From NCBI GenBank assembly GCA_963205115.1, contig CAUJHV010000061.1, positions 30,602-94,601 on the forward strand: a stretch of DNA of 64,000 nucleotides. The letters are read 5' to 3'. The notes under the pieces were generated by a model. That model was not told the origin of the DNA. It worked only from the letters and a program-made list of their open reading frames with translations, and made no database searches. The stretch comes from Pseudomonadota bacterium. GTDB lineage: Bacteria; Pseudomonadota; Gammaproteobacteria; Burkholderiales; Burkholderiaceae_C. Of the stretch, positions 25,451-59,500 are shown in pieces. Every line of letters starts with the position of its first letter. The first letter of the stretch is position 1. The position numbers and the translations under genes were made by a program.

Positions 25451-25516
25451 GGGGAATGCTCCGGATCGATTCAGGTGAACGGAAGGCGGGAAGTGGCGCG
25501 ATTGTCGCGGCCCGGC

Positions 25517-25927
25517 TTACTCGGGTACGACGGCCGTGACTTCGATCTCCACCACGGCGGCGTCTTCCATCAGCGCAACCACCTGTACCGCGGCCATGGC
25601 CACGGCGTAGTTGCCGATCAGCTCGCGGTACTGCGCACCGATCTCGCGGCCGGCGGCCAGGTAGGCCTTCTTGTCGGTGACGTACCAGGTCATGCGCACG
25701 ATGTGCTCGGGCTTGGCGCCGGCCGCGGCCAGCACGGCCACGACGTTCTGCAGCGCCACGCGTGTCTGCGGCACGATGCCGCCGTCGGGGAAACGGCCTT
25801 CGGCATCCCAGCCGACCATGCCGGCCACGAAGACCTGGCGTCCCTGGGCCGTGACGGCGGCGCTCACGCCGTTGGCATATCCCTTGGGGCGCGGCCAGCC
25901 GGGGGGCAGAAGGGCTTGATGGCTCAT
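25517..25927 (-). CDS. RidA family (enamine/imine deaminase) protein
   Basis: GYANGVSAAVTAQGRQVFVAGMVGWDAEGRFP...QTRVALQNVVAVLAAAGAKPEHIVRMTWYVTDK. Confidence 0.88.
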   Translation of the reverse strand: MSHQALLPPGWPRPKGYANGVSAAVTAQGRQVFVAGMVGWDAEGRFPDGGIVPQTRVALQNVVAVLAAAGAKPEHIVRMTWYVTDKKAYLAAGREIGAQYRELIGNYAVAMAAVQVVALMEDAAVVEIEVTAVVPE

Positions 25928-26043
25928 CGGGGGGTCTCCTGGGCAAGGCGGGGTGACAGCATACGGTGCGGACGAACGGGAGTACCTTCGCGCTGCCTGC
26001 GCCGGTATGAACCCTTCGGGCGGCCGGGCGGGCTCATCTCGGG

Positions 26044-27216: not shown

Positions 27217-27271
27217 GTGCGGCGTTTCCGTGGTGTGCGGCCGCCCGGGCGTGGCGCCGGGCGGTGTGGCG

Positions 27272-28128
<857 letters not shown>

Positions 28129-28132
<4 letters not shown>

Positions 28133-28635
28133 GGTTTTTTCTCCGTCGGGGTGTGCAGTGCGGTGGACAGTTGGCTGCGCAGCCGGCCCAGCAGGTCCAA
28201 CAGCTGGCGGCGGTCGCCGGCGGGCATGCCGGCAAAGAGCTCGACCACCCATTGCTCGTGCACGCCGGCGGCAGCCTCGAAGGCCTGACGGCCCTCGGGG
28301 GTGAGCCGCACACGCTGCGAGCGCCGGTCGTGCGGATCGCCTTCGCGCAGCACGTGGCCTTCCTTGACGAGTTCGTCGGTCAGGCCGGTGACGCTGCCGC
28401 CGGTGACCATCAGCCGGCGCGAGAGTTCCGACATGCGCAGCCCTTCGGGCATGCGGTGCAGCTGCGCCAGGTAATCGAAGCGCGACAGCGTCATGCCAAA
28501 TTCGGTGCGCAGGCGCTTGCGGATCTCGTTTTCGATCTCGGTGCTGCACGACAGCAGGCGCAGCCACAGGCGCAGCGCCTGGTGGTCATCGGGGGCGATG
28601 CGGGCTTCGAGGCCGCTGCGCACGGGGGCGTCCAT
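28129..28635 (-). CDS. MarR family transcriptional regulator
   Basis: [66 protein letters not shown] wHTH; stop overlaps the next gene's ATG (ATGA). Confidence 0.92.
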
Positions 28636-28637
28636 CG

Positions 28638-30983
28638 TCAGGCGGCGCCGCCAGACGCGTTGCCGGCGGCCGCTTTCTCGCGCAGGAACAGCGCTTCCAT
28701 CTGCGACTTGCCCGACACGTACTGGCGCGGCCAGGGCACGTCGGCGTAGCCGATCTTGGCCGCTTCGGTCAGCACCCACGCCGGGTTGGCCAGGTGCGGA
28801 CGCGCGATGGCGCACAAGTCCGCGCGGCCGGCGGCGATGATGCTGTTGACATGGTCGGCTTCGCTGATGGCGCCCACCGCGATGGTCGCGATGCCGGCTT
28901 CGTTGCGCACGCGGTCGGCAAAGGGCGTCTGGTACATGCGGCCGTAGGTGGGCTTCTGGTGCGCGCTGACCTGGCCCGAGGAGCAATCGATCATGTCCGC
29001 GCCGGCGGCCTTGAAGGCGCGCGCGATCTCGACCGCGTCGTCGGGCGTGATGCCGCCTTCGACCCAGTCGTGCGCCGAGATGCGCACCGACATCGGCTTG
29101 TCGGCCGGCCAGGCGGCGCGCACCGCGGCAAAGATTTCCAGCGGGTAGCGCAGCCGGTTCTGCAACGGGCCGCCGTAGTCGTCGCTGCGCCGGTTGGTCA
29201 GCGGCGAGATGAAGCTCGACAGCAGGTAGCCGTGCGCGCAGTGCAGCTCCAGCCAGTCGAAGCCGGCCGCGGCGGCGCGCTGCGTGGCGGCGACGAAGTC
29301 ATCGCGCACGCGGTCCATGTCGGCGCGCGTCATCGGGTGGGGCAGGGGGCCGTCGTCGAGATAGGACACGGCCGATGCGGCCAGCAGCGGCCAGTTGCCG
29401 GCGGGCAGTGGCTGGTCCATGCCGCCGCCGGACCAGGGCACGCAGGTCGATCCCTTGGGCCCGGCGTGGCCCAGCTGGATCGCGATGCGGGCGTCGCTGT
29501 CGCGGTGCACGAAGTCGACGATGCGTGTCCACGCGGCCTGCTGCGCGTCGTTCCACAAACCGGGGCATCCCGGCGTGATGCGCGCATCGGGCGAGGTGCA
29601 GGTCATCTCGGCCACGACCATGCCCGCGCCGCCCAGCGCACGCGCGCCCAGGTGCACGAGGTGGAAGTCGCCCGGCACGCCGTCCTCGCAGGAATATTGC
29701 GCCATCGGCGAGACGACGACGCGGTTTTTCAGCGTCACGCTGCGCACCGTGTACGGCGTGAACATGGGCAGGACGGGCGGATGGCCGGGCCGCGACGGCA
29801 CGCCGGCCGAATGGGCAAACCAGCGCTCGAAATCGCCGAGCCACTTCGCATCGCGCAGCCGCAGGTTCTCGTGGCTGATGCGCTGGCTGCGCGTGAGCAT
29901 CGAGTACATGAACTGCTCGGGCGGCAGCACATCCGCGTAGCGGTGGCCGACCACCTCGAACCATTCCATCGCATTCCAGGCGGCGTTCTGCAGGCGCAGG
30001 GTTTCGATGCGGCGGGCTTCCTGGTAGTGCGTCAGCACGGTCTCGAGCTGGGCCGGGTCGTCGCCGTGGATCTTGAACTGGCGCACCAGCTCGATGCCGT
30101 CCTCGAAGGCCAGCTTGGTGCCCGAGCCGATGGCGAAGTGGGCCGTGTGCACCGCGTCGCCCATCAGCACCACGTGGCTGCCGTTGCGGTTTTTCAGCCA
30201 CCAGTGCTCGCACACCACGCGCTGGAAATTCAGCCAGGCCGAGCCGCGCAGGTGGCGCGCATTGGTCATCAGCCGTGCGCCCTTGAGGTTGTCGGCGAAG
30301 AGCTTTTCGCAGAAGTCGATGGAGCCCTGCTGGTCGGCCTTGTCCAGGCCGTGTGCAAGCCAGACGTGTTCCGGGCACTCGACGATGAAGGTCGTGGTCT
30401 GCTCGTCGAACTTGTAGATGTGCGCCTGGAACCAGCCGTGTTCGGTGCGCTGGAAATCGAAGGTGAAGGCGTCGTACAGGCGGTTGGTGCCCAGCCAGAT
30501 GTAGCGGTTCGGGCGCGTGACGATGTCGGGCTTGAAGACATCGGCGTACTTGCTGCGGATCTTCGAGTTGATGCCGTCGCTGGCGATGATGAGGTCGGCG
30601 TCGGCGTAGTCTTCGTCGTTGTCGGCCTCGGTCTCGAAGACCAGCTTGACGCCGGACTGCTCGCAATGGGCCTGCAGGATGTTCAGCAGCTTCTTGCGGC
30701 CGATGCCCACGAAGCCGTGCCCGCCCGAGCGGATGGTGCGTCCCTTGAACAGCAGCTCGATGTCGTCCCAGTGGTTGAAGGCCTCCTGGATCTCGTCGGC
30801 CGTGGGCTTGTCCCACAGGCGCATGTTGTCCATCGTGGCGTCGGAAAACACCACGCCCCAGCCGAAGGTGTCGTAGGCGCGGTTGCGTTCGACCACGGTG
30901 ACGTCGTGGCGCGGATCCAGGCGCTTCATCAGCAGCCCGAAGTAGAGCCCCGCGGGTCCGCCACCCATGCACACGATCTTCAT
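28638..30983 (-). CDS. Bifunctional FAD monooxygenase / OYE-like oxidoreductase (salicylyl-CoA 5-hydroxylase or 2-aminobenzoyl-CoA monooxygenase/reductase type)
   Basis: N-terminal [21 protein letters not shown] and [26 protein letters not shown]-terminal TIM-barrel [25 protein letters not shown]...[31 protein letters not shown]. Confidence 0.9.
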
Positions 30984-38728: not shown

Positions 38729-40159
38729 ATGAAACTCAATGACCTGCCTGCCTACCTGACCGCGGACGACACACGCGAGCGCACCGAGACCGTCGTGTCG
38801 GTCGCGCCCGCCTTGCTGGAACTCCAGGGTCTGGCCTTGCGCGAAGCGCGATTCGATGCGGCTGCCACCGCGGTGCTGGCGGATCTCGCCCGCCGCCTGG
38901 GCTGTTCGCGTATCAGCCTGGCGGCGCGTGCGACGCCCATGGATTCCGCGCGGCTGCTGGCGACCTCGGACGGCATCGACAACGACGGCCGTCTGCTGGC
39001 GATGCGCGCCTTGTGCGACGCCGCCGACGAGGCGCTGGAGCGCGACGAGCCCGTGGAGTCGCCGGCCGCCGAAGACGGCGTCGGCAACCCGCGCGCGGTG
39101 GCCCTGGGGGCCTTGCTTCGCGCCGACGAGGTGCGCGCCGTGATGGGCGTGGCTTTCGAGACCGAGGGCGCGCAGCGCGCGGTCTTCCTGTACGAGATGC
39201 GCAATGGGCTGGGTGCACCGGCGCGTTCGCTGGCGCGCGATGCGGCGTTGTTCGTCGGTCCCATCCTGATGCTGAAGTCGCGGCTGGATGCGCCGCTGGC
39301 CGAGCGTGCACGCGACTTCATCGCGCAGCGCACGGCGGGCGAGCGGCGGCTGCCGACCTCCTGGCTGATGGCGACCGTGATCGGCGTGACGGTGCTCTTC
39401 GGGGTGCTGTGGCCGTCCACGCACCACGTCGTGGCGCAGGCCCGTGTGGAAGGCCACGGCCAGCGCATCGTCCCTGCGCCGATGGACGGTTTCCTGCAGT
39501 CGGTCGCCGTGCGACCGGGTGAATCCGTGAAGGCCGGCCAGGTGCTGGCCACGCTGGACGACCGCGAGGCAGCGACCACCGCCGAGAAGACCACGGCCGA
39601 GCGCGTGCAGTTCGAGCGCCAGTACCGCGACGCGCTGACCCGCGAAGACGCCGCGGCCACCGAGATCGCCCGCGCAAAGTACGAGCAAGCCAAGGCCCAG
39701 GACGACCTCGCGCAATCGCGCATGGCGCGTTCGCGGCTGCTGGCGCCCTTCGACGGCGTGCTGATCAGCGGCGACCTGGCATCGGCCATCGGTTCGCCCG
39801 TCAAACGCGGCCAGGAATTGATGGTCGTGGCGCAAAGCCACGCCTGGCGCGTGGTCGCCGAGGTCGACGAGGCCGACGTCACCAGTCTCGTGCCGGGCCA
39901 GAAGGCGCGCCTGCTGCTGGCGGCCCTGTCGGGTGCGACGGCGGAGTTTGTCGTCGACCGCGTCAGCCCCGTGGCACAGGCCGCGGACGGCCGCAACATC
40001 TTCGAGGCCGAGGGCCGCCTGTCCGACGACCTGTCGGGCCTGCGTCCCGGCCTGCGCGGCATCGCCCGCATCGAAGCGGGCGACCGCGCCCCGCTGGCGG
40101 TCTGGTTCGAGCGTGCCAGCACCGCGCTGCGGCGCCTGATGTGGACCTTGATGGCGTGA
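38729..40159 (+). CDS. HlyD-family periplasmic adaptor with N-terminal GAF-like cytoplasmic domain
   Basis: About 190-aa soluble GAF-like N-terminus, TM WLMATVIGVTVLFGVLWPS, then HlyD core (GQRIVPAPMDGFLQSVAVRPGESVKAGQVLATLDDRE ... SRLLAPFDGVLISGDLASAIGSPVKRGQELMVVAQ). Confidence 0.8.
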   Translation: MKLNDLPAYLTADDTRERTETVVSVAPALLELQGLALREARFDAAATAVLADLARRLGCSRISLAARATPMDSARLLATSDGIDNDGRLLAMRALCDAADEALERDEPVESPAAEDGVGNPRAVALGALLRADEVRAVMGVAFETEGAQRAVFLYEMRNGLGAPARSLARDAALFVGPILMLKSRLDAPLAERARDFIAQRTAGERRLPTSWLMATVIGVTVLFGVLWPSTHHVVAQARVEGHGQRIVPAPMDGFLQSVAVRPGESVKAGQVLATLDDREAATTAEKTTAERVQFERQYRDALTREDAAATEIARAKYEQAKAQDDLAQSRMARSRLLAPFDGVLISGDLASAIGSPVKRGQELMVVAQSHAWRVVAEVDEADVTSLVPGQKARLLLAALSGATAEFVVDRVSPVAQAADGRNIFEAEGRLSDDLSGLRPGLRGIARIEAGDRAPLAVWFERASTALRRLMWTLMA

Positions 40160-40165
40160 GGGCCC

Positions 40166-42349
40166 GTGAACCGATCCGACAGCTCCGCCTCCGCATCACA
40201 CGCGCCCGACTCGGCTGAACTCCACTCGGCGGACTGGTACCGCGTCGGCGGGCTGCGGCTGCGGCTGCGCCCCGGTGTCTCGGTGTCGCGCCAGGTCGTG
40301 CGCGGCATGGTCTGGCACGTGCTGACCGACCCGTCCACGGGCCGGCAGCACCGCTTCAACGAACCTGCTTACCGGCTGATCGCCGCGCTGGACGGCAACC
40401 GCAGCCTGGACGCCATCTGGCGCGGGCTGCTGGCGCAGGACGGCGACGCCGCGCCCACGCAGCCGGAGGCGATCCGTGTCGTCTCGCAGGCCTATGCCGC
40501 CAAGCTGCTGCTGGGGCAGGTCGTTGGCGATGCGCGCGGCATCGTCAAGGCGCAGCGCAAGGATCGCCAGCGGCGCGACCGTGCGGCCGCCAATCCGCTG
40601 GCTTTCCGCTTGTCGCTGTGGAACCCGGATGCCTTCCTGGACCGGACCGTCGACTACGTGCGCCCCTTGTGCGGCCCGAAGGCACGCGCCGTGGGCTGGC
40701 TGATCGCGTTCGTCGGCCTGTGCCTGCTGATGGCCAATGGCGAAGCATTGGCTCGTGACGCCAGCCTGCACGTGGGCTCGGTGCGCCTGATGATGGCCAT
40801 GTGGCTGGCCTGGCCGCTGCTCAAGGGCCTGCACGAACTCGCACACGCCTTCATGGTGAAGGTGCACGGCGGGGCGGTCAACGAGATCGGCGTGACGCTG
40901 ATGGTGCTCACGCCCTTGCCCTATGTGGACGCGACGGCGTCGGCGTCCTTCGCCGACAAGCGCCACCGCGTGGCCGTCGCGGCCGCGGGCATCCTGTGCG
41001 AGGCCGTGCTGTCCACGGCCGCACTGGCCGCCTGGCTGGTGCTGGAGCCCGGCATGCTGCGCGAGATCTGCCTGGCGGTGGTGCTGGTGGGCGGCGTCTC
41101 GACACTGCTGGTCAACGGCAACCCGCTGATGCGCTACGACGGCTACCACGTGCTGGCCGATGCGCTGGAACTGCCCAATCTGGCGTCGCGCAGCCTGCGC
41201 TGGTGGAAGACGCTGCTGCAGCGGGTGCTGCTGCGCCAGCCGCAGGCGCGCATGGACGACCTGTCGCCCGGCGAAGAGCCGTGGCTCGTGGCCTATGCCC
41301 CCCTGTCCTGGATCTGGCGCATCGTGCTGCTGGCCGTGCTGTCGCTGGCGCTCAGCGCCTGGAGCGTGCTGCTGGGCCTGGGGCTGATGGCGGCCGCCGC
41401 GTGGATGGCCGTGGCCGGCCCGATCTGGCGCGTGGCGCGCTGGCTGTGGCGTTCGCCCGAAGCCACCGGCGTGCGCGGCCGTGGGGCGATCGCGCTGTCC
41501 GCCGCTGCGGTGGCGGGTTTGCTGGTGCTGTTTGCGCTGCCGATGAACGACCGGACGCAGGCGCCCGGCATCGTGTGGCTGCCCGACGATGCCTTTGTCC
41601 GACTGCAGAGCGATGCCCGCATCGAGCATTTCCTGGTCGAGGACGGCGCGCAGGTGCAGGTGGGCACGCCGCTGGTGCGCCTGAGCAACGAGGAATTGCT
41701 GGCCGATCTGGCACGCGTGCGCGGCCAATGGCGAACGGCGCAGATCGAACGCCTGCAGCGTTTCGACTCCGATGCCGCGCGTGTCGCGGTGGCCGAGGAC
41801 GAGATCCGCCGCCTGGCCTCGGAGACCCAGCGGCTGCAGCAACTGGCCGACCAGCTGACCTTGCGCGCCGCCATCGCGGGCCGGGTTGTCATCCAGGAGC
41901 CGCAGCGCATGATCGGCCGCTGGCTGTCGCAGGGTGAGACCGTCGCGCAGGTGCTGCCGCCGGGTGCGGCGCGCGTGCGTGCCCTGGTGCGCAACGAGGA
42001 CGTGGCGCGCGTGCGCCAGCAGCCGGGCGACATCGCCGTGCAGCTGGCGCACAACCGCCAGCCGGCGGTGTCCGCCACGCTCGAGCGCGGCATTCCGCGC
42101 AGCTCGCGCGAGTTGCCCAGCGCCGCCTTGGGCGAACACGCCGGCGGACCGCTGTCCACCGACCCGGCAGACCGCACCGGCCGCACCGCGCAGGAATCGC
42201 GCTTCTCGTTCGACCTGCGGCTGCCCGAGGGCGTCGAGGCGCGCGTGGGCACGCGCACCTGGGTGACCTTCGATCACGGCGCCACCGTGGCGGCCGATGT
42301 GCTGCTGCGCGTGTGGCGCGAAACCTTCCTGCGGCACTTTGCCCGATGA
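40166..42349 (+). CDS. M50/site-2-protease-like membrane protein fused to a HlyD/lipoyl-like domain, PqqD-like N-terminus
   Basis: GTG start; N-terminal HRFNEPAYRLIAALDGNRSLDAIW; LLKGLHELAHAFMVKVHGG (HExxH); NGNPLMRYDGYHVLADALELPNL; C-terminal adaptor IEHFLVEDGAQVQVGTPLVRLSNEELL...LRAAIAGRVV. Confidence 0.8.
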   Translation: MNRSDSSASASHAPDSAELHSADWYRVGGLRLRLRPGVSVSRQVVRGMVWHVLTDPSTGRQHRFNEPAYRLIAALDGNRSLDAIWRGLLAQDGDAAPTQPEAIRVVSQAYAAKLLLGQVVGDARGIVKAQRKDRQRRDRAAANPLAFRLSLWNPDAFLDRTVDYVRPLCGPKARAVGWLIAFVGLCLLMANGEALARDASLHVGSVRLMMAMWLAWPLLKGLHELAHAFMVKVHGGAVNEIGVTLMVLTPLPYVDATASASFADKRHRVAVAAAGILCEAVLSTAALAAWLVLEPGMLREICLAVVLVGGVSTLLVNGNPLMRYDGYHVLADALELPNLASRSLRWWKTLLQRVLLRQPQARMDDLSPGEEPWLVAYAPLSWIWRIVLLAVLSLALSAWSVLLGLGLMAAAAWMAVAGPIWRVARWLWRSPEATGVRGRGAIALSAAAVAGLLVLFALPMNDRTQAPGIVWLPDDAFVRLQSDARIEHFLVEDGAQVQVGTPLVRLSNEELLADLARVRGQWRTAQIERLQRFDSDAARVAVAEDEIRRLASETQRLQQLADQLTLRAAIAGRVVIQEPQRMIGRWLSQGETVAQVLPPGAARVRALVRNEDVARVRQQPGDIAVQLAHNRQPAVSATLERGIPRSSRELPSAALGEHAGGPLSTDPADRTGRTAQESRFSFDLRLPEGVEARVGTRTWVTFDHGATVAADVLLRVWRETFLRHFAR

Positions 42350-44295
42350 ACGCCGGGACGTGGCGGCTGAAGGGCCGAGCGTCCGTGGCCGCCTCGCCCG
42401 AGGGCGAGGACGCCCGCCCGGATGCCGTCGGCACGCTGCCGGGCTGGCCTTCGGCCGTGGCCCAGACCTGGCGGATGTCGTTCGATCACTGGGCGGGTGC
42501 GGATGCGCCGGCGTTGACGCAGGCTGCGGCTGAACTGCGGCGTCAGCTGCGGCCGCACGCGCTGGGCGGCGTGGAAGGCGCCAGGGCGCTGGGCCTGGTG
42601 GCCGCGGCGCTGAAACACACCTTGGGCTGGTCGGCCTACGACCAGCAGGGCCTGGCGGCCTGGCTGATGCTGCGCGGGCGACTGGTGGAGATGGCCACCG
42701 GCGAAGGCAAGACACTGGCGGCCGGCCTGGCGGCGGCCACGGCGGGGCTGGCAGGCCTGTCGGTGCATGTGCTGACCGCCAACGATTACCTGGTCGAACG
42801 CGACCGCGAGACGCTCGAGCCGCTGTTCCGGCTGCTGGGCCTGGGCACCGCGGCCGTTTGCGCGACGACCCCGCGCGAATCGCGGCTTCTGGCCTACCGC
42901 CAGCCCATCGTCTATGTCACCGGCCGCGAGCTGGTGTTCGATCACCTGAAGGACCATCTGCAACTGCGCGGCGAGCGCGACCCGCGTGTGCTGCGCGCCC
43001 GTGCGCTGGGCGGGGAAGGCGCATCCGCGGACGGCCAGGCGTTGCTGCCGCGCCTGCAGCAGGCCATCATCGACGAGGCCGACAGCATCCTGCTCGACGA
43101 GGCCAGCATCCCGTTCATCCTGTCCACGCCCGGTGCGGCACCGGACGTCGCGGCACTGGAGGCGGCGCGCGTGCTGGCGGGCCTGCTGGGCCCCGAGGAC
43201 TTCGTGCTGATGCCTTCCCGACGGCAGGCCGAACTGACCGAAGCCGGCCGCGAGCGCGTGGCGCGCACGGTACCGCCGTCGAGCCCGCTGTGGCCCGCGC
43301 GCCATGCCGTGGAACTGGTGCGGGCGGCCCTGGTGGCCGAACGTCTGCTGGTGCGGGACCGAGACTACACACTGAGCCCCGGCAAGGGCGTGCAGCTCAT
43401 CGACGAGATCACCGGCCGCATCGCCTTCGGCCGGCAATGGAACAGTCCGCTGCATGCCATGGTGGAGCTCAAGGAAGGGCTCGAGCCGACGCCCGCGATG
43501 CAGACCGCCGCGCGCATCACCTACCAGCGCTTCTTTCCGCGCTACGAACGCCTGGGCGGCATGAGCGGCACGCTGCGTGAATCGCACGCCGAGTTGAAGG
43601 CGTTGTACGGCTGCCCGGTCGTGCGTGTGCCGCTGGTCAAGCCGTCGCAGGCGCGCTGGTGGGGCCAGCGGGGTTTTGTCGATGCGGCCGCACGCCAATG
43701 GGCCTGCGTGGAGCGCATCCGCGACATGGTTCAGCAGCGCCGGCCTGTGCTGGTGGGTACCGACAGCGTGCGGACCAGCCAGAACCTCTCGGCCGCGCTG
43801 ACGCGTGCCGGGATCGAGCACCAGGTGCTCAACGCCGTGCAGGATGCCGACGAAGCCCAAGCCGTGGCACGCGCCGGCGAAGCCGGCCGCGTGACCGTGA
43901 CCACCAACATGGCCGGGCGTGGCACCGACATCCGTCTCAGCGAAGCCGCCCTGGCCGCGGGCGGCCTGCACGTCATCCTGGCCTTGAGCAACCGCAGCCG
44001 CCGCATCGACCGGCAATTGGCCGGACGCGCCGCGCGCCACGGCGACCCGGGCTCGGCCGAGTCGCTGGTCTGCCTGGACGATCCGGTCATTGCCCAGACC
44101 CTGCCGGCACGCTGGCGTGCCGCGCTGGCCCGCCGCGCCGACGCGCAGGGTGAACTGCCCGCCCTGCTGGTGCGCCCGCTCGTGATGCTGGCGCAACGCC
44201 GGGCCGAGTGGCGGGAGCGACTGCTGCGCCGCGACCTGCGCCTGATGGACGAAGGCCTGGTCGAACAGCTGGCTTTCTCGGGACGCCAGGAGTAG
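42346..44295 (+). CDS. Divergent, shortened SecA-like translocase ATPase
   Basis: EMATGEGKTLAAGLAAATAGL, VHVLTANDYLVERDRETLEPLF, IIDEADSILLDEASIPFILS, VTTNMAGRGTDIRLSEAAL, RRIDRQLAGRAARHGDPGSAESLVCLDD; 649 aa; ATGA overlap with upstream gene. Confidence 0.87.
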   Translation: MNAGTWRLKGRASVAASPEGEDARPDAVGTLPGWPSAVAQTWRMSFDHWAGADAPALTQAAAELRRQLRPHALGGVEGARALGLVAAALKHTLGWSAYDQQGLAAWLMLRGRLVEMATGEGKTLAAGLAAATAGLAGLSVHVLTANDYLVERDRETLEPLFRLLGLGTAAVCATTPRESRLLAYRQPIVYVTGRELVFDHLKDHLQLRGERDPRVLRARALGGEGASADGQALLPRLQQAIIDEADSILLDEASIPFILSTPGAAPDVAALEAARVLAGLLGPEDFVLMPSRRQAELTEAGRERVARTVPPSSPLWPARHAVELVRAALVAERLLVRDRDYTLSPGKGVQLIDEITGRIAFGRQWNSPLHAMVELKEGLEPTPAMQTAARITYQRFFPRYERLGGMSGTLRESHAELKALYGCPVVRVPLVKPSQARWWGQRGFVDAAARQWACVERIRDMVQQRRPVLVGTDSVRTSQNLSAALTRAGIEHQVLNAVQDADEAQAVARAGEAGRVTVTTNMAGRGTDIRLSEAALAAGGLHVILALSNRSRRIDRQLAGRAARHGDPGSAESLVCLDDPVIAQTLPARWRAALARRADAQGELPALLVRPLVMLAQRRAEWRERLLRRDLRLMDEGLVEQLAFSGRQE

Positions 44296-44599: not shown

Positions 44600-47500
44600 A
44601 TGCCCGCGCCTGCCCGTTTCCCGCTGAATCGCCTGGTCTCCTTGATCCGGCGGGCCTGGTCCGCCCTGCGACCGGCGCGGCGTGCGGGCCTGCGCGTGCG
44701 GCCCAGCGTGGAGGCGCTGGAGCCCCGCGTCCTGTACTCGGCCGATCCCCTGGCGCTGGCCAGCCTCAGTGCCGAAGTGCGGATGCTCGATTCGCAAGAC
44801 ACACCGGCCATCCAGCCGCCAGACGGTCCGGTGGGCAACGCTGCGGCCCGTGCCACGCTGGCTGCGGGCGCGGCATCCGGCGCCACTGCCAGCGACGCGC
44901 CCGAGCGCACGGCGCCCGTGCACGAGCTGATCTTCGTGGACGCCGCGGTGGCCGACGCGCAGGTCCTGATCGACGGCATCCTGGCCTCGCGCGCGCCGGA
45001 CGCCCACGTCGAGGTGGTGCAGCTGCGGGCCGATCGCGACGGCCTCGCACAGATCAGCGAGCGTCTGGCGCAGGCACGCGATCTGGCGGCCGTGCACATC
45101 GTCTCGCACGGTGACCAGGGTCTGCTGCAGCTGGGCAGTGGCCGGGTCGATGCCGGCACGCTGCAGGCGCGGGCGGCTGAGCTGGCGGCCTGGCAGACGG
45201 CCCTGGGCGCGCAGGCCGACCTGCTGCTGTGGGGCTGCAATGTCGGCGAGGGCGAGGTCGGCAGCCGCTTCATCGGGCAGCTGGCCGCCTTCACCGGCGC
45301 CGATGTCGCGGCCAGCACCGACCCCACCGGCAGCGCCGCGGCCGGCGGCGACTGGCTGCTGGAGCTGCACACCGGCGCCATCGAGGCCCGCTTCGACCTG
45401 CTGGCCAGCGCGCTGCCGCAGCGCTGGGAAGGCGTGCTGGCCTTGACGCCGCAAGGCGGTGAGACCCGCGTCAACACCACGACCACCCAGGTGCAGCAGA
45501 CGCGGCCGGGTGGTCGCTCCGTGGCCATGGATGGGGCTGGCAACTACGTGGTCACCTGGTATGGCCGCGGCTCGGTGGACTTCACGGGCGTCTACTTCCA
45601 GCGCTACGACGCCAGTGGCGTGGCGCAAGGCGGCGAGACGCTGGTCAACACCACCACCACCGGCCCCCAGGAGTGGCCCCTGGTGGCCATGGATCCCAAT
45701 GGCAACTTCGTGATCGTCTTCGAAGATGCCAACGGCCTGGACGGCAGCGGCTACGGCATCTACGGACAACGCTACAACGCCAGCGGCGCGGCGCAGGGCG
45801 GGCAGTTCCGCATCAACACCACGACCACCGGCGACCAGGCGGCTGCCGGCGTGGCGATGGATGCCAGCGGCAACTTTGCCGTGGCCTGGATGAGCACCCA
45901 GACCGGCGACTTCGACGTCTATGTGCAGCGCTACAACGCCGCGGGTGTGGCCCAGGGCGGCGAGGTGCGTGTCAACACCACCACCACCGGGATCCAGGAC
46001 TACCCCACGCTGGCGATGGATGCGACCGGCGGGTTTGTCGTGGCCTGGACCAGCGACCAGGGCGCGTTCACCGACATCTACGCGCGGCGCTACGACAGCA
46101 GCGGCACGGCGCTGGGGGGCGAATTCCAGGTCAACACCGACACGGTGTCCGCTCACAGCTACGCGAGTGCTGCGATGGCGTCGGATGGCAGCTTCGTGAT
46201 GGCCTGGGCGAGTGCGGCGCAGGACCCGGACAGCACCGAGGGCATCTATGCGCAGCGCTACAACGCGTCCGGTGTGGCCCAGGGTGCAGAGTTCCGTGTC
46301 AACACCTACACGACCTTGGCGCAGAGCTATCCCGTCGTGGCGATGAACGCCACCGGTGGCTTCATCGTCACCTGGCAGAGCACCGGCCAGGACGGCAGCC
46401 TCGAGGGCGTCTATGCCCAGCAGTTTCTGGCCAGCGGCTCGCCCACAGGGACCGAGCTGCGTATCAACACGACCACCGCCAACGAGCAGCGGAACGCCAG
46501 TGTGGCCTATGCGGGGAGCCAGTCGGTCGTGGTCTGGTCCGGCGACGGTGTAGGCGACGGCACTGCCGTGTTCGCCCAGCGTCTGAGTGTCAGCGTGCCG
46601 CCCGGCATCACGGTGGGCACCGTCAGCGGCAACACCAGCGAGACCGGCACCACCGCCAGCTTCACGGTGGTGCTGGACACGGTGCCGTCGTCCAACGTCA
46701 CCATCCCGGTCAGCGTGAGCAACGCCCTGGAGGCCGGCGCCTCCACGGCCTTGCTCACCTTCACCAGCGCCAACTGGTCCACGCCGCAGACCGTGACGCT
46801 CACCGGCCTGGATGACACGCTGGACGATGGCGACCGCAGCTACACCGCGGTGCTGGGCGCCGCGAGCAGCGCCGATGGGGCCTACAACGGGCTGGATGCC
46901 AGCGACGTGGCCCTGCAGAACCTGGACAACGACACGCGCAGCACGGTCACCGTGACGACCACGGCCGACACACTGGATGGCGACACCGGCAGCCTCTATG
47001 CGCTGCTGGGCAACCGCGGGGCCGACGGGGAGATCAGCCTGCGCGAGGCCCTCACGGCGGCCAACGCCACGGCCAATGGCAGCGGCGGGGCCGACCGCAT
47101 CCACTTCGCCATCAGCGGCACGGGCGTGCACACGCTGAACATCGGCTCCGCGCTGCCGGTGATCACTGACCCCGTGATCCTGGACGCGAGCACCGACGAC
47201 AGCTTTGCGGCCAACAGCAACCGACCGGCGGTCATCCTGGACGGCAACAACGCCTTCGCCGGCGATGGCCTCGTGCTGGCCGGCACGGCCGATGGCAGCA
47301 CCATCCGCGGCGTCGTGGTCCGCGATTTCAGCGGCGATGGCATCGAGATCCAGGTCGGCGCCAACGGCAACACCGTGGCCGGCAACTACATCGGCAGCCT
47401 CAGCGCCCTGGGCGCCAACGTGGCGGGGGAAGGCAACACCGACAACGGTCTGCGGGTGCTGGGCGCCAGCAACACCATCGGCGGCCTCACGGCAGCCGAC

Positions 47501-50500
47501 CGCAATGTGATCGCCGGCAACCAGCAGGGCATCCAGATCAGCGGCCTGGGCATCGGCAACCTGATCATCGGCAACTACATCGGCACCGACGCCACCGGTC
47601 TGGTGGCCCTGGGCAACACCGACGACGGCATCGGGTTCGATGCCGGCTCCAGTGGCAACACCGTCGGCGGAACCACGGCGGCCGAGCGCAACGTGATCGC
47701 CGCCAACGGCGATGACGGCTTCAGCACGGATACGAGCAACCACGTCGTCCAGGGCAACTACATCGGCGTCGGCGCCGATGGCGTGACGGCGCTGGGCAAC
47801 GGCGGTGACGGTGTCGAACTCCGGGACAACGCGGCAGGCAACCGCATCGGCGGGACCCTGTCCGGCCAGGGCAACCTGATTCGCCACAACAGCGGCGACG
47901 GCATCTTCGTCAGCCTGATCGGCAGCCCACCGACGGGCAACTTCCTGCTCGGCAACTCCATCGACGCCAACACGGGTCTGGGCATCGACCTGGGAACCGA
48001 CGGCGTCACCGCCAACGATGCCGGCGATGCCGACACGGGCGCCAACAACCTGCAGAACTTTCCCGTGCTGGCCTCGGCCGTCACCAATGGCGCCACGCAG
48101 CTGGCCGTCAGCGGGACGCTGAACGCGGTGGCCAACAGCCCGTTCCGCATCGAGTTCTTTGCCAGCACGAACGCCGACCCGTCCGGCTACGGCGAAGGTC
48201 AGATCTACCTGGGCTACGTCCATGTCACCACCGATGGCAGCGGCAACGCCACGTTCGACACCACCGTGTCCGCGTATGTGGCGGCGGGTGTCGCTGTCAG
48301 CGCCACCGCCACGCGCAGCGATGTCGGCTACACCAGCTTCACCGACACCTCGGAGTTCGCCGCCAACGTGGCCGCGACGTTGGGCAGCATCAACAGCGTG
48401 CCGGCCTTCAGCGGACTGGACGGCGCGCCCACCTACGTGGCGGGCGGATCCGCCGTCATCCTGGACAACACGGTCACGGTCAGCGATGCGCAACTCTCGG
48501 GCGCCAACAACTTCAGCGGCGCCACGCTGACCCTGGCGCGCCAGGGTGGGGCGAGTGCGCAGGATGCGCTGGCCTTCGACGGCATCGTGGTCACCACCAG
48601 CGGCGCCGATGTGCTGGTCAATGGCGTGCAGGTGGGCAGCTACGGGTTCACCGCTGGGCAGCTGGACATCACGTTCAACGGCAGCGCCACGGGTGCCCGC
48701 GTCAACGCGCTGCTGCAGAACATCGTCTACTGGAACACCAGCGGCAGCCCGCCCGCCAGCGTGCCGATCGCCTGGACCTTCAGCGACGGCAATGCCGGTG
48801 CGCAAGGCGCCGGCGGCGCGATGCTCGCCACGGGCAGCACCACGGTGACCATCTCGGGTGTCAATGCGGCGCCGGTGCTCACCGCCCCCGCCAGTGTCGG
48901 GATGGTGCAGAACACGACGTTCAGCTTCAGCCCCGATCTGGGGCGCGGGATCAGCTTCACCGACAGCGACATCGGCAGCGGCCAGGCGCAGCTGACGCTC
49001 GGGGTGGCCCAGGGCACGCTGACCCTGGCGCAGACCACGGGCCTGAGCTTCACCACGGGCGACGGCACGGCCGATGCCACGTTGGTCTTCACCGGCACGG
49101 CCGCGGCGATCCATGCGGCCCTCGACGGTCTGGTGTATGCGCCCACGACCAACTATGTGGGCAGCGATTCGCTGACGATCACCGTCAGCGACCAGGGCAA
49201 CACCGGCACCGGCGGTGCGCGCAGCGACAGCGGAACCGTGCCCATCAGCATCGGCGCCCACTCGTTCCTGCAGGGCCAGTATGTCGAGATGGGTGTGCAG
49301 CAGACGGGCAACTTCGGGGCCGATGGCGCAGTGCCGCCGGGTTTCCTCAACCCCGCCTCCACCTATCCGACCGGCAGTTTCGGCATCTATGCCGACTACG
49401 GCCGCGACGGCTGGTACGTCGGCAGCCCAGGCCACACCGGCGACTACGTGTACCCCACCGAGGAATGGGGCATCCATGTGGGAGGTACCACCTTCCGCAA
49501 CCGGGCAGGCCTGGCGCCCGCCATTGCCGGATCCCTCTCGGCCACGGTCGACACCGGCCCGACGCAGCAGGTGGAGTGGACCGGCGGCACCGCCGGCATC
49601 GCGGTGAAGCAGCTGATCACGCTCACGGAGAGCCAGCTGCACTTCTCGATGACCGTGACGCTGACCAACGTCAGCGGCGGCACGCTCAACGACGTCTACT
49701 TCTATCGTTCGTTCGATCCCAACCAGGAATACTCCTGGACCAGCGACTACGCCACGTTGAACTGGGTGGATTCGCAGGGCGGCGACCCCAGCGGCACTGC
49801 CGTGATCGCGACAGCGGGGGCCAGTTACCCCTCGGTGGCGCTGAGGATGTCCAGCACCGGCAGCGATGCCCGGGTGGCCCAGGGCGGCTGGTCGAACATC
49901 AACCCGGTCGATGCGTACCTGGGTATCAACGCGTTCGCCGGCACCGGCCTGTACACCGAGGCCAGTCCCAACTATGCAGACGAGGCCATCACGCTGTTGC
50001 GCAAGGTCAGCACGCTGGCGCCCGGGGCTACGGCGACCTTCGTCATCCAGTACGACATGTCGTCGAACACGGCGCCGCAGGTCGACCTGGATGCCAACGA
50101 CAGCACCGCCGCAGGCAGCGATGCGGCGGTCAGCTACACACCGGGCGGTCCGGCCGTCACTGTGGCCGACGTCGATGCCACCGTCATCTCCATCGACAGC
50201 CCGACGCTGTCGTCGATGACGCTCACGCTGGCGGGTGCGCTGGATGGTCCCGCCGAGACGCTGGCGGCCACCACCGCCGGCACCTCGATCACGGCCAGCT
50301 GGAGCGGCGGCGTGCTCACGCTCAGCGGCAGCGACACCGTGGCCCACTACCAGCAGGTACTGCGCACGGTGACCTACGACAACGCCAGCGGCACGCCCAC
50401 CGCCGGCGAGCGGCGCGTCGACGTGGTGGCCAGCGACGGTGTCAACCTGAGCACCGCAGCCAGTTCGCACGTCACGATTGCCGGGTCGGGGAATGTGGCG

Positions 50501-53500
50501 CCGGTGATCGCCGCCGTGGAGGGCTCGCCGCTGGCGCACACCGAGAACGCTGCGGCGACACCCGTCACCGCCACCCTGACACTGAGCGACGCCGACAGCG
50601 CCAACCTCGGCGGCGCCACGGTGAGCATCAGCGCCAACTTCGCCAGCGGCCAGGACGTGCTGGCCTTCACCAACCAGAACGGCATCACCGGCGGCTGGAA
50701 CGCCGGCACCGGCGTGCTCACCCTCAGCGGCAGCGCCACCGTGGCGCAGTACCAGGCGGCGCTGCGCAGCATCACCTACGCCAACAGCAGCGACGCGCCC
50801 AGCACGGCCACGCGCACGGTGTCGTTCGTGGTCAATGACGGCATCAGCGACAGCGCCGCAGCCACGCGCCAGATCACGGTGGCGGCTGTCAACGACGCAC
50901 CGGTCCTCAGCGCCACCGGCACCGCAACGGCCACCCCCGGCCAGGCCTACACGTTGAACCTGTCCGCCACGGATGCCGACGGTGTGACGATCACCTCCTG
51001 GACCATCAACTGGGGCGACGGCCAGATCCAGACGGTCGTCGGCAATCCCCCCTCGGTCACGCACACCTATGGCGCAGCGCTGACGGGCTTGAGCTTCAAT
51101 GTGGCCGTCGCGGCCACGGATGTCGATGGCACCTGGTTCGGCAACCGGCTGTACGTGCCCACCTGGGCCGGGACCGATGCCGTTCACATCTACCAGGGTC
51201 AGGCCGGCACCTTCGTCGGCACGATGGCACCGCTGACCGACGGACTGGACGACCACATCGAAGTGATCCAGGGCCCTAACGGCCATCTGTATGTGTCTTC
51301 GGAGCAGAGCGACAGCGTCCTGGAGTACACGACGGCTGGCGCACTGGTGCGCACTTTCGTGCCGCCGGGCTCGGGCGGCCTCAACGCGTCGGCGGGCATG
51401 GGCTTCGGGCCGGACGGTCATCTGTACGTGGCCAGCTACCAGAGCAACCAGGTGCTGCGCTACGACGGATCGACCGGCGCATTCCTCGGTGTGGCGGTGG
51501 CTGCCGGCGACGGTGGTTTTGGCATACCGCTGGGCTTGAACTTCGGCCCGGACGGCATGATGTATGTCGCCAGCCGCGCCAACGGCAGCATCATGCGCTT
51601 CGATGCGCCGACCGGCACCCGCGACGCCGGCTTCGCCGCCACCTGGACCGGCCCGGATCTGGAAGACTTCACCTTCGGACCCGACGGCCACATCTATGCG
51701 GCCGACGGCGACCGCATCGTGCGCCTGAACGGCAGCACGGGCGCCTTCATCGACGCGTTCGTGGCCGCAGGTGCCGGCGGCTTGTCGTATGCCGTCGGCT
51801 TGGCCTTCGGGCCCGATGGCAGGCTTTATGTCTCTGACCAGAACGCCGACGCCATCCGTGTCTACCACGGCACCACAGGCGCATCACTGGGCGACCACGT
51901 GCCAGCCGGCGGCGGTGGCTTGAACAGCCCGACCTACATCACCTTCGCGGCCAGCCACCAGGTGACCGTGGCGGCAACGGCCAACGACCAGCCGGCATTC
52001 GGCAACCTGGATGGAACGCCCGCCCATACCGAAGGCGGTTCACCGGTGGTGCTGGATGGCAATGTCCAGGTCACCGATGCAGAACTGAGCGCGGCCGACA
52101 ACTTCAGCGGTGCCACGCTGACCCTGGTGCGCAATGGGGGTGCCAGCGCGCAGGACATCTTCAGCGCCACGGGCACGTTGAGCGCGCTCACCGAGGGCGG
52201 CAACCTGGTGCTGGCCGGCACCACCATCGGCACCGTCACCACCAACAGTGGCGGCACGCTGGTGCTGAGCTTCAACGCCAACGCCACCAACGTGCGCGTG
52301 AACCAGGCGATGCAGCAGATCGCCTATGCCACCACCAGTGACGCACCGCCGGCCAGCGTGCAGGTCAACTGGACCTTCGACGACGGCAACAGCGGCGCGC
52401 AGGGCAGCGGCGGTGCGCTGCAGGCCACAGGAATCACGACGGTGTCCATCACGGCGGTCAACGATCCGCCCGTGATCGCCGCGCTGGATGGTGACACGCG
52501 CGCCTACATCGAAGGCGATGCCCCCGCGCTGTTGGGCTCGGCCAATACCTTGACCGACGTGGACTCTGCCGACTTCGCGGGCGGCGCGCTCACCATCGCC
52601 TTCACCGGTGGCAGCGACAGCGCCGAGGACGTGCTGGCCGTCCGGCATGAGGGCAATGGCGCGGGCCAGATCGGCGTCTCGGGCGGGACGGTGTCCTTCG
52701 GCGGCGTGAACATCGGCAGCTGGACGGGCGGCAGCAGCGGCGCCGCTCTCGTCATCACGCTGGGCGCCAGCGCCGACGCGGTGGCCACGCTGGCGCTGAT
52801 CAACAACATCACCTACTACAACACCGATGCTGTGGCGCCCACGACGGGAAACCGGGCGGTGCGCGTCGTGCTGACCGATGGCGATGACGGCACCAGCCTG
52901 CCCAGTGACACGGTGATGAGCGTCAGCGCGCTCAATGACCCACCCGCGATCACCAGCAACGGCGGTGGCGCCACGGCCGGCATCAACGTCGCCGAAAACA
53001 GCACAGCCGTGACCACGGTGACCCGCAGCGACGTCGATGGCGGGGTGCCGGTGTACTCGATCATCGGCGGCGCCGATGCCGCGAAGTTCGCGATCGATGT
53101 GAACACCGGCGCGCTCAGTTTCCTCACCGCGCCGGACTTCGAGGCGCCCACGGATGCCGGTGCCAACCAGGTCTACGACGTGACGGTGCAGGTCAGCGAC
53201 GGCGCCGGCGGTACGGACGCACAGGCCATCGCCGTGACCGTGAGCAACGTCAATGAGGCGCCCGCCGGCACGAACAAGACGGTCACCACGATCGAGGGCG
53301 GCGCCTACACCTTCACCACCGCCGACTTTGGTTTTGTCGACGCCAGTGACAGCCCGGCCAACGGCCTGCTGGCGGTGACAGTCGCCACTGTGCCGGGCGC
53401 GGGCAGCCTGACCTTGTCCGGCGTGCCCGTCACGGCCGGGCAGAGCGTCAGCGCCGCCAACATCGCCTCGAACCTGCTGGTCTTCACGCCCGCGGCCAAC

Positions 53501-56500
53501 GCCAACGGCGCAGGCTATGCGAGCTTCACTTTCCAGGTGCAGGACAACGGCGGTACGGCCAATGGCGGCGTGGACCTGGACCCCACGCCGAACACCATGA
53601 CGGTGGACGTGACGGCCGTCAACGATGCGCCCTTGGCCTCGGGAAGTGCCACGCTGGCGCCGATCGCCAAGAACGCCTCCAACCCGCCGGGTGCATCGGT
53701 CAGCACGCTGTTCAGCGGGAACTTCTCCGACAGCACCGACGAGGTCACGGGCGGCTCTTCGGCCAACAGCTTCGCCGGCATCGCCATCGGCAGCTACACG
53801 GTCGATGCAGCCAAGGGCAGCTGGCAGTATTCGACCAACGGCGGCAGCAGCTGGACCGCACTGTCCAGCGCCGGCACGACCACTGCGATCACGCTGAACG
53901 CCACCGACCTGATGCGCTTCGTGCCGGCCAACAACTACACCGGCGCGGCCACGGCCTTGGCCGCCAACCTGATCGAAAGCCCCCAGGCCATCACCAGCGG
54001 CGCGACCCTCAACCTGAGCGGCGCCACTGGCGGCACGACGCGCATCTCCACGGCGACCGTTGCACTCGTCCAGACCATCTTCGACGCCAACGCCGCACCC
54101 ACGCTGGACAACACCAGGAGCCCCGCGCTCAGCGCCCAGAACGAAGACGCTGGCGCGCCCGTGGGTGCCGTCGGCACACCGGTTTCGGCGCTGGTGGATT
54201 TCGCCTCGCCCGCCGGCCAGCTGGACAACGTGAGCGACCCGGATGCCGGCGCGCTGCTCGGCATCGCGGTGACGGGTGCGGACACCAGCCAGGGCAGCTG
54301 GTGGTATTCGATCAACGGCGGCGCCAACTGGAATGCGCTGGGCGCGGTGAGCGACGCCAACGCCCGGCTGCTGGCCGCCGATGCCAACACACGCCTGTAT
54401 TTCCAGGCGAATGCGAACTACAACGGCAGCCTGGCCAACGCGATCACCTTGCGGGCCTGGGATCGGACCAGCGGCACCAATGGCGGCAGCGCGAACCTGT
54501 CCGGCGGCAGCAGCACGGTGCGCGACCAGTTCGACGCCGTGTCCTATTCCAACAACCAGGGCACCGCCAATTGGAACGGCGCCTGGACCGAAGTCGGCGA
54601 CAACCCGAACGGCAGTCCGAGCTCAGGCAAGACGGCCATCTCCGGCGGCGCCTTGTCGATCGCCGCCTGGCAGCAGGACTCGCAGGTCTGGCGTTCAGCC
54701 AACCTGTCGGGTGCCACCTCGGCCACCCTGACGTTCGCCCGCAACAACCAGATGTCGGGGAACAACCAGATCGCCGTGGAGGTTTCGGGCGACGGCGGCA
54801 CCAACTGGTCGACGCTGTTCACCTATACCCGAAGCGCCAATGCCGGCGTGGGCACCGACAGTTTCGACATCTCGGCATTTGCCTCCGCCGACACACGGAT
54901 CCGCTGGCGGGTGGCGTCGAACAACGGCTCGATGGACGCCGTGACCGTGGACAACGTGCAGATCGCGTACAGCGTCTCGATGACCGGTGGCACGACGGCC
55001 TTCTCCATCGCCACGGACAGCGCCAGCCTGACGGTCAACCCCGTGGCCGACACACCGTCGGTCACGAATGCCAGCACCAACGAGGACACCCAGACCAGCA
55101 GCGGCCTGGTCATCTCGCGCCACGTGGCCGATGGCGCCGAGGTGACCCACTTCAAGATCACCGGCATCAGCAACGGCACGCTGTTCAAGAACGACGGCAC
55201 GACGCCCATCGCGAGCGGCACGTTCATCACCGTCGCGGAAGGCAACGCCGGGCTGAAGTTCACGCCCGCGGCCCAGTTCAATGGCAGCGGCAGCTTCACG
55301 GTCCAGGCGTCCACCTCGAACCTGGATGCCGGGCTGGGCGGCGGCACCGCGACGGCCACCATCACCGTGAACGCGGTGAACGACGCGCCGGTGATCACCA
55401 GCAATGGCGGCGGCGCCTCGGCGGCGCTGAACGTGGCCGAGAACGCGACGGCGGTGACCACGGTGACGGCCAGTGATGTCGACGCAGGCGCGACCCAGAC
55501 CTACTCGATCGGTGGCGGTGCGGATGCGGCCCTGTTCACCATCAACGGCAGCACCGGCGCCCTGAGCTTCAACGCCGCCCCGAACTTCGAAGTCCCCCAG
55601 GACGCGGGCGCCAACAACATCTACGACGTGACGGTGCAGGTCAGCGACGGCGCAGGCGGCATCGACACCCAGGCGATCGCGGTCACCGTGACGGCGGTGA
55701 ACGACAACAACCCCGTCATCACCAGCAACGGCGGCGGCGCTACCGCTGCGGTGAACATGGCCGAGAACAACACGGCGGCCACGACGGTGACGGCTTCCGA
55801 TGCCGACCTGCCGGCGCAGACGCTGACCTACAGCATCAGCGGCGGTGTCGACGCGGCGAGGTTCACGATCGACAGCAACACGGGTGCGCTGAGTTTCGTC
55901 AGCGCTCCCGACTTCGAGGTGCCGACGGATGCCGGCGGCAACAACGTCTATGACCTGAGCGTGCAGGTCACCGATGGCGCGATGACCGACAGCCAGACCA
56001 TTGCGGTGACGGTGACGGCTGCCAACGACAACGCGCCGATCATCACCAGCAACGGCGCGGGCGCCAGCGCATCGATCGACGTGGCCGAGAACACGACGGC
56101 GGTTGCCACCGTCACGGCCACGGATGCGGATCTGCCGGCGCAGACAGTGGTCTACAGCATCGTGGGCGGCGCCGATGCCGCGCGCTTTTCGATCGTCGGG
56201 GCCACCGGCGTGCTGCGCTTCGTGGCGGCACCGGACTACGAATCGCCCACCGACGGCGGCGCGAACAATGTCTACGATGTGCGCGTGCAGGCCAGTGACG
56301 GCGCGGGTTTCGTCGACACGCAGGACATCGCCGTCTCCGTCACCAACGGCAACGAGGCGCCCACCGCCACCATCACGCCGGCCAGCTATTCGGTCAACGA
56401 ACAGGCCGTGCTGGTGCTCGGTGGCACCGGGTTGGGCGTGGCCGACCCCGATGCCGGTGCCGCGGCGGTCAGCGCCACGCTGAGCGTAGGGCAGGGCGCG

Positions 56501-59500
56501 CTGAGCGCCACAGCCGGAACGACCGGCGTGGTGATCAGCGGAAGCGGCACGGCCAGCCTGGTGCTGCTGGGCACGGTCGCCCAACTCAACGCGCTGTTTG
56601 CCGGGGCCGGCGGCTCGAGCCTGAGCTACCAGGACGGTTCGGACACGCCGGCCGCATCCACCACCTTGACGCTGCTGGTCGACGACCTCGGCAACAGCGG
56701 GGCCGGTGGTGCGCTGACGGCCAGTGACTCGGCCGTGGTGTCCATCACCGCGGTTAATGACACGCCGGTAATTGCCGCACCGGCGCGCGCCAGCGTGATC
56801 CCCGGGCAGACGCTGGTCTTCGACCCGGCGCAGTACCTGGGCATCAGCCTGGCCGATGCGGACGTCGCGGGGTCGATGCTGGAGCTGCAGTTGACGGTCA
56901 GCGGTGGCGAACTGAGCCTGGCCACGACGACCGGCCTGAGCTTCTCGGTCGGTGACGGCACGGCTGATGCGGCCATCACCGTCACGGGCACGCTGGTTGA
57001 CCTGAATGCCGCACTCAACGGCATGAGCTACACGCCTGCCGTCGGCTTCAACGGCAACGACAGTCTGGCGCTCACGGTGTCCGACCTCGGCAGCACCGGA
57101 GCGGGCGGCACACTGAATGCCGGCGCCGCCGTCGACATCTACGTCGGCAACAACACCTTCCTGCGGGGCTTCTTCGTCGAGGCCGGTGTCGACCAGTACG
57201 GCACCCTCGGATCCGACGGCCCGGCACCCATCGGCTACCACAGCGCCGGCGAGATGCTGGGCGCGGAGTCCGATCCCCAGCGCGACGGCTGGGCGACGTA
57301 CGACGGCGACTTCATCACACCGGGTTCGCCGCTGGACGAGTGGGGCGTGCGCATCGACGGGACGACCTATCGCAACGACAGTTCGGCTGGCTCGGCCGGC
57401 ATCGCCGGATCGGCCGCGGCGACGGTCGACAACGGCATGACGCAGACGGTGCTGTGGACGGGCGCCACGGCCGGTCTGAACGTGTCGCAGAGTTTCGTCA
57501 TCGGGCGAAACGACCTGCACATGGACATCGCCGTCACGTTGACGAATACAACCGGCGCGCCGATGCTGGACCTGTACTACTACCGCCACGTCGACCCGGA
57601 CAACAACTACGACCAGAACGGCTCTTTCGAGACGACCAACACCATCGTGTCCCAGGGCGACGTCACGGGCGTGTCGTACGCCAGCGCCAGCCAGCCCGAT
57701 GGGTCGTTCATGGGTCTGGTGGGATTTGGTGCCGAGTCGCGCGTGGCGCATGGCAACTTCGGCGGGATCGAGCCGAGCGACGCCTGGGATGGCTTGAACG
57801 GCCACTCGACCTCGGGGTCGGCCCTCGAGGACCTGGGCATCACGCTGGTCTACCGCATCGCCTCGCTTGCCGCCGGTGCATCTGTGACGCTGGATGCCCG
57901 CTATCTGTTTGGCAGCGAGTCCGCCCCCTATCTGGACCTGGACCCCGACGACAGCACGGGCGCGGGCACCGACCACGCGAGCAGCTTCACGGAGGGCAGC
58001 GGCGGGGTGGCCATCGCCGACACCGATGCCGCGGTCAGCGATGCCGACAGCCCGCGGCTGAGCGGCATGACGCTGACGATCAGCAACCCCCTGGACGGAG
58101 CGGCGGAAGTGCTCAGCGCCAATACCGCGGGCACGTCGATCGTTGCCAGCTATGCCGGCGGCGTGCTCACGCTCACCGGCAGCGACACGGCGGCGCACTA
58201 CAACCAGGTGCTGCGCAGCGTCATCTACAACAACAGCGCCGACAACCCCGACACCACGGCCCGCGCGATCACGGTGAGCGTGTCGGACGGCGTCAATACC
58301 AGCAACGTCGCCACCGCCACGGTGAGCATCCTGGCGGTGAACGATGCACCCACCATCGGCCTGCCGGCCGCGCAAAGCGTGGCCGAAGACGCCACGCTGG
58401 TGCTGTCCACCGGCAATGGCAATGCGATCGGCATCGGTGATCTCGACGACAACGGCGGCACGCTGCGTCTGACGCTCACGGCCAGCACCGGTACGCTGAC
58501 GCTGGGCTCGACGGCGGGCCTGATCTTCGTCAGCGGCGACGGTCTGGCCGACGCCAGCATGAGCGTCGAGGGCACGAAGGCGGCGCTGAATGCGGCACTG
58601 CAGGGTTTGGCGTTCTCGCCCGCGGCCAACTTCAACGGCGCGGCCTCGATCACGGTGGTGGTCAACGACCTGGGCAACACGGGCAGCGGCGGCGCGGGCA
58701 ACGCCAGCCAATCGCTGGCCGTGAGCGTGACCGCGGTGAACGACGAACAGGTCCTGGCGAGCAATCTCGGCCTGACGGTGGTGGAGAACACCACGGGCAA
58801 TGCCATCACGAACGCGGTGCTGAACACGACGGATGTCGACAACAGCACGGCGCAGCTCGTCTACACACTCACGGCCCTGCCGGCGCAGGGCACGCTCAAA
58901 CGCAGCGGCACGGCCTTGGGTCTCGGGCAGACCTTCACGCAGGCGGACATCGACGGCGGTCTGGTGCGCTACGACCACAGCGGCAGCGAATCGTCGGCCG
59001 ACAGCTTCGGGTTCACGGTGGACGACGGTGCGGGTGCGGGCAGCGCGGGCAGCTTCGCGCTGACCATCACGCCCGTGAATGACCAGGCGCCGGTGATCGG
59101 CAGCAACGGCGGAGGCGCGTCGGCCGCCGTCAACGTGGCCGAGAACACGACGGCCGTGACGACCGTCGTGGCCAGCGACGGTGACCTGCCGGCGCAGACG
59201 ATCACCTACAGCATCGCTGGGGGCGCGGATGCGGCCCGCTTTGCGATCAATACCAGCACCGGCGCGCTGACCTTTGTCGCGGCACCGGACCACGAGGTGC
59301 CTCAAGACGTCGGCGCGGACAACGTGTACGTCGTGGTGGTGCAGGCCAGCGACGGTTCCTTGACCGACAGCCAGACCGTGAACGTCACCGTGACCCCGGT
59401 GAACGACAACGACCCGGTCATCGGCAGCAACGGCGGCGGCGCCAGCGCGTCCGTCGGCATCTTCGAGAACACGACGGCTGTCACCACCGTCACGGTCACG

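Follow-up and report, generated by a model that had tools for sequence, protein, structure and literature searches.

A short SecA-like ATPase in an M50-HlyD cassette as the putative motor of an export machine for giant LEPR-XLL proteins

Introduction

Giant RTX adhesins such as LapA and SiiE leave the cell by type I secretion, in which an ABC transporter is the energy source. A locus type built around a different ATPase was described by Kamneva, Poudel and Ward in 2015, consisting of a secondary SecA_DEAD protein without the wing-scaffold, encoded with GAF-HlyD, M50-HlyD and HlyD genes (PMC4452313). That paper proposes a type-I-like system with SecA as the ATPase and the M50 protein as the pore, calls the broader role of the locus ‘completely unknown’, and gives its expression in Methylobacterium extorquens as none or very low, the GAF gene excepted. 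No follow-up was found in a literature search covering few subscription journals and no bioRxiv preprints. A laboratory counterpart of such a shortened motor exists in Escherichia coli SecA-N68, a constitutive ATPase that binds SecYEG and signal peptides and is unable to translocate (PMC5603524).

The window analysed here is a 64,000-nt stretch of a Burkholderiaceae_C contig. A preliminary description, made from the DNA sequence, had reported a 649-aa SecA-like protein and taken it for a specialised translocase motor rather than the essential SecA. The locus type itself is thus already known from the 2015 paper; the present analysis contributes a candidate substrate for it.

Results

The short SecA gene of the window

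The short SecA-like ATPase is encoded at positions 42346–44295 (+ strand) and consists of NBD1, PPXD and NBD2 followed by the first helical-scaffold helix. Its ATG at 42346 overlaps the stop codon of the upstream M50 gene as ATGA. An alternative, longer frame begins with a GTG at 42313 (660 aa), and the start giving 649 aa is favoured because of the ATGA overlap, in agreement with the length first reported. The SecA motor signatures named in the preliminary description, GEGKT, IIDEADSILLDEA, TNMAGRGTDI and RRIDRQLAGRAARHGDPGS, all read as quoted in the open reading frame, and alignment indicated that the catalytic residues are intact, with none lost. Matches to SecA_DEAD (6e-66), P-loop_SecA (6e-41) and SecA_PP_bind (1e-14) in Pfam place the protein in the SecA superfamily, with the DEAD domain, the preprotein cross-linking domain, the second motor domain and their motifs all present.

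When compared with the full-length SecA of the same genome, the short family covers residues 1 to ~665 and essentially none beyond, and also lacks an insertion at ~521–560. The parts of the full SecA left without a counterpart are the wing, the two-helix finger and the zinc tail; the early end and missing zinc tail noted previously are shared by the family. By the boundaries of E. coli SecA, where the scaffold spans 611–670 and 755–835 and the wing 671–754 (PMC5603524), what remains in the short SecA is the two motor domains, the PPXD clamp and the scaffold's first helix. Its relatives are equally short, mostly 640–690 aa, and the recurrence of this length in dozens of loci ruled out a local truncation or assembly artefact. 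An AlphaFold2 model built from 27 relatives (mean pLDDT 86.6) matched solved SecA structures with E values down to 1.7e-46, and gave a query-normalised TM-score of 0.78 to the SecA chains of SecA-SecY complexes.

Placement among SecA proteins

Three SecA_DEAD genes are present in the genome: a 915-aa housekeeping SecA on contig C49 and two short ones, on contigs C61 (the window copy) and C42. In a tree of 60 rows, 18 housekeeping SecAs formed one group (SH-aLRT 100%) apart from all short copies, including that of the window; the tree has no outside root and so does not tell which of the two groups is older. The window protein is therefore not the only SecA of its genome, and the separate full-length SecA and distinct tree group support the earlier view of a specialised motor. 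It also scores 386 against a cut-off of 800 with the housekeeping SecA equivalog model and is without the wing, finger and zinc tail. Every SecA2 model likewise scored far under its cut-off (370 of 725, 347 of 1085, 336 of 930 and 274 of 1100 bits), and a Gram-positive-type SecA2 identity was rejected. A search for SecY at 1e-3 found neither an ordinary nor a second SecY in this assembly, which is ~90% complete, and was positive in 13 of 14 control genomes.

The cassette in the window and in other genomes

The window order is MFP, M50-HlyD, SecA and then a giant gene, all on the + strand. The first cassette gene (38729–40159, 476 aa) belongs to the GAF-HlyD adaptors, with matches to HlyD_3 (7e-16) and HlyD_D23 (4e-13) and a score of 499 bits with the family HMM. 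A GAF domain is present in 17 of 22 members of this first-adaptor family and was not detected by the domain scan in the window MFP itself. The second gene (40166–42349, 727 aa) encodes a fusion of a PqqD-like domain, an M50 intramembrane metalloprotease and an HlyD part, for which family-wide domain assignments were M50 in 22/22, HlyD_3 in 19/22 and PqqD in 18/22. The zinc motifs HExxH and NPLxRxD are invariant. The protein is predicted to be membrane-embedded, and its model (pLDDT 85.9) has an adaptor part resembling MexA/MacA, the only part matched among the Foldseek matches listed.

The second short SecA of the genome lies in the same gene arrangement, accompanied by an extra HlyD gene, MFP2. 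This is the one strong MFP2 copy in the assembly, and the window cassette has none. Further loci from the same taxonomic family nearly always show the order MFP, M50, SecA, MFP2 wherever the sequence reaches. The survey was extended to 80 named loci from at least six phyla, including Alpha-, Beta- and Gammaproteobacteria, Myxococcota, Thermodesulfobacteriota, Nitrospirota, Omnitrophota and Rokubacteria. Because these loci were retrieved through M50, an association with SecA was not built into the search; the M50 query alignment itself was built on loci with SecA, which leaves distant M50 relatives under-represented. Both M50 zinc motifs were present in all 80. SecA directly followed M50 in 66 of 71 testable loci and MFP preceded M50 in 69 of 69, while MFP2 was nearby in 54 of 66 and absent from 12, and is therefore not strictly defining for the locus type.

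TolC-like genes were recognised by eye beside some cassettes, and none among the scanned open reading frames of the window. HlyD proteins are present as in type I secretion, and an ABC transporter was not recognised among the genes examined, in agreement with the 2015 report (PMC4452313). Upstream of MFP in four loci (L043, L044, L046 and L049), a giant with RTX-like repeats was observed, as were SapC-like and DUF3467-like genes, the latter two recognised by eye.

Elsewhere in the window, a frame at 11861–13651 (− strand) with a weak SecA-profile match proved to be an ordinary DEAD helicase. Positions 28638–30983 (− strand) encode a 781-aa fusion of FAD_binding_3 and Oxidored_FMN. Three abutting frames of 631, 360 and 361 aa at 24224–28288 (+ strand), with no Pfam match at 1e-8, may form an uncharacterised operon or lie opposite real genes.

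The neighbouring LEPR-XLL giant and its leader

Downstream of the short SecA, positions 44600–62740 (+ strand; ATG at 44600, TAA at 62738–62740) encode a giant LEPR-XLL, DUF4347 and cadherin-repeat protein, the probable substrate of the cassette. Its N-terminus comprises a basic stretch and VEALEPRVLYSAD, with the leader motif VEALEPRVLYSADPL at 44708–44752 (+ strand), and matches the LEPR-XLL family (NF012209), to which it belongs; the LEPR-8K score is 29.6 bits against a cut-off of 17. Further matches are to DUF4347 (1e-51) and to Cadherin and Ig repeats. After the TAA, the reading frame runs on through the same repeats to the contig end without a further stop. The codon may be genuine or may stem from misassembly of the repeats, which makes the length given here for the giant provisional.

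Across 151 genomes of the taxonomic family, LEPR-8K exceeded its cut-off in 22 of the 22 genomes with a short SecA as against 11 of the 129 without (Fisher 1e-18, not corrected for phylogeny; P values of this kind treat related genomes as more independent than they are). Among 35 cassettes of this M50 type, 29 are adjoined by a LEPR giant on the same strand, either up- or downstream, and several of the remaining six are located near contig ends. The adjoining giants have open frames of 740 to 14,318 aa, the shortest of which may be cut by a contig end. Leaders were counted with a widened LEPR pattern, as a strict version under-counted them. Their consensus is ExLEPRxLxSAD. These leaders are basic and non-hydrophobic, with 15-residue hydropathy maxima of 0.5–1.75, and lack a signal-peptide-like hydrophobic core. 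Co-occurrence and adjacency make the LEPR-XLL giants a candidate substrate of the cassette, a link that is new as far as the searched literature goes.

Variants without SecA, degenerate copies and leader subtypes

The great majority of cassettes retain intact motor residues. In Seongchinamella and Parabeggiatoa (L121:11865–14117 and L102:12342–13877) the cassette is otherwise intact and a SecA_DEAD-related protein occupies the SecA position, in which Walker A, Walker B and motifs V and VI have been lost; both appear to be catalytically dead SecA paralogues. In a Marinobacter cassette (L141) a LEPR giant is present and a short SecA is found nowhere in the genome, while in L075, L118 and L134 SecA is not adjacent to the cassette and short SecAs are encoded elsewhere in the genome. 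Four genomes have LEPR giants with the housekeeping SecA as their sole SecA, and a general rule that LEPR giants need a short SecA was rejected on this ground.

A SecA-free sister system was also recognised, in which the LEPR giant adjoins two HlyD genes and a distant M50-HlyD (L159/L160, L161, L162, L163, L168 and L169, with an FD[GA]A-type leader). In the single locus examined for TolC, L160, this gene was confirmed by Pfam. The sister system is that of the four genomes just named and of two more of these loci, which lie in genomes that also bear a SecA-type cassette. Taken together, the Marinobacter cassette, the two degenerate copies and the sister system show that not every version of the machine strictly depends on SecA.

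The two machine types differ in their leaders. SecA-free leaders end in ALEPRxx[FL]D[GA]A in 6 of 6 cases, whereas SecA-type leaders end in LExRxLxSAD or close variants, with Asp at the discriminating position in 1 of 42 (L060, LMDAD). The association between leader ending and machine type gave a Fisher P of 7e-7 on a 40-against-6 table. The Marinobacter locus has a SecA-type M50, no SecA and a leader of the SAD type. Because this leader is kept without SecA, leader type may follow M50 rather than SecA, which, over these few cases, would fit recognition by the PqqD-like domain.

Discussion

We consider it probable that the short SecA drives a dedicated export machine of type-I-secretion-like design, whose cargo is a giant surface protein. 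The basic N-terminal LEPR leader of the giant would be bound by the N-terminal PqqD-like domain of M50-HlyD, a plausible leader reader. The M50-HlyD membrane protein would hold the short SecA, which retains its ATPase and PPXD clamp without the SecY-coupling wing and two-helix finger and which would pass the unfolded polypeptide through the inner membrane. Three proteins would contribute HlyD parts to a periplasmic conduit leading to a TolC-type channel, and the M50 site may cut the leader or a membrane segment. With its chain ending at ~665, a natural SecA would be expected to need a new partner, and the behaviour of SecA-N68 (PMC5603524) fits a motor re-coupled in this way. M50-HlyD is the obvious candidate for that partner because its gene overlaps that of SecA and the protein is predicted to be membrane-embedded. 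We infer the motor role from conserved sequence features, and in a few cassettes SecA or its catalytic residues have been lost. This loss counts against the export-machine reading, as do the missing MFP2 of the window cassette and the absent or very low expression reported for the M. extorquens genes other than the GAF gene (PMC4452313). A broader claim, that these loci constitute a separate type of secretion system for giants in which a SecA-derived motor replaces the ABC transporter, the LEPR leader read by PqqD is the export signal and the SecA-free sister reads another leader subtype, is put forward tentatively, as a possibility that we do not quite lean towards.

The cassettes that have dispensed with an active SecA, namely L141, L102 and L121, and the existence of the SecA-free sister are the main grounds for regarding the short SecA as a helper that keeps the giant unfolded or gates it, with energy coming from SecYEG and the housekeeping SecA or from the proton-motive force. 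Binding of SecA-N68 to SecYEG and signal peptides without translocation (PMC5603524) points the same way. Such a role nevertheless seems unlikely, as most cassettes have intact motor residues, SecA follows M50 with the regularity given above, and the LEPR leaders have no hydrophobic core that would resemble a signal peptide.

Passage of ordinary substrates through SecYEG by a Gram-positive-style SecA2, whether of the SecA2-only or the SecA2/SecY2 kind, is highly improbable given the low model scores, the absent wing and two-helix finger, and genomic partners that are HlyD and M50 rather than Sec genes. The failure to find a second SecY adds weakly to this, since the ordinary SecY is missing from the assembly too. 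The solved relatives with the best scores do include the SecA2 proteins of Clostridioides difficile and Mycobacterium tuberculosis, and the 2015 tree sets the clade beside actinobacterial SecA2 (PMC4452313). The closest NCBIfam match of the M50 protein is a daptide metalloprotease, at 137 bits against a cut-off of 300. A PqqD-like domain next to a protease is likewise reminiscent of peptide-maturation loci. These two features would suit a RiPP-like or envelope-processing cassette in which M50 processes a surface protein's leader and SecA has taken on another task, for instance releasing or recycling the chain. With three HlyD-type proteins and nearby TolC-like genes pointing to envelope transport, and with giants rather than small peptides as substrates, we give this proposal as little credence as the SecA2 one.

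For the export machine that we favour, the LEPR-XLL link offers a concrete substrate to test for a widespread locus and hints at how some of the largest bacterial proteins are exported. If true, SecA would have exchanged SecY for a type-I-like conduit, a switch of channel that is rare among export motors. The dead SecA copies and the SecA-free sister are natural tests of what SecA contributes.

Comparison with known systems places the window cassette closest to the 2015 locus, with which it shares a short SecA_DEAD protein without wing-scaffold beside M50-HlyD and GAF-HlyD genes; it differs in having no additional HlyD gene (MFP2). The cassettes as a group agree with that locus in their four components, loss of the SecA wing-scaffold, overlapping phyla, lack of an ABC transporter and a TolC-type gene that is sometimes adjacent (PMC4452313). 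The parts of the paper covered here name no substrate, LEPR-XLL giants or PqqD-like domain and mention neither a SecA-free sister nor catalytically dead copies. With type I secretion of RTX adhesins the cassettes share HlyD adaptors, a TolC-type channel and a repetitive giant encoded beside the machine, whereas a SecA-like ATPase and an M50 membrane protein stand here in place of the ABC transporter, and the conserved candidate signal (LEPR) is N-terminal rather than C-terminal. SecA2 is alike in being a second SecA-family ATPase for a subset of exported proteins and different in its models, domain loss and partner genes. E. coli SecA-N68 (PDB 5k9t) is comparable in domain content, with NBD1, PPXD and NBD2 present and the C-terminal helical domains missing; SecA-N68 is a laboratory construct, whereas the short SecA is natural and ~50 residues longer, including the first scaffold helix.
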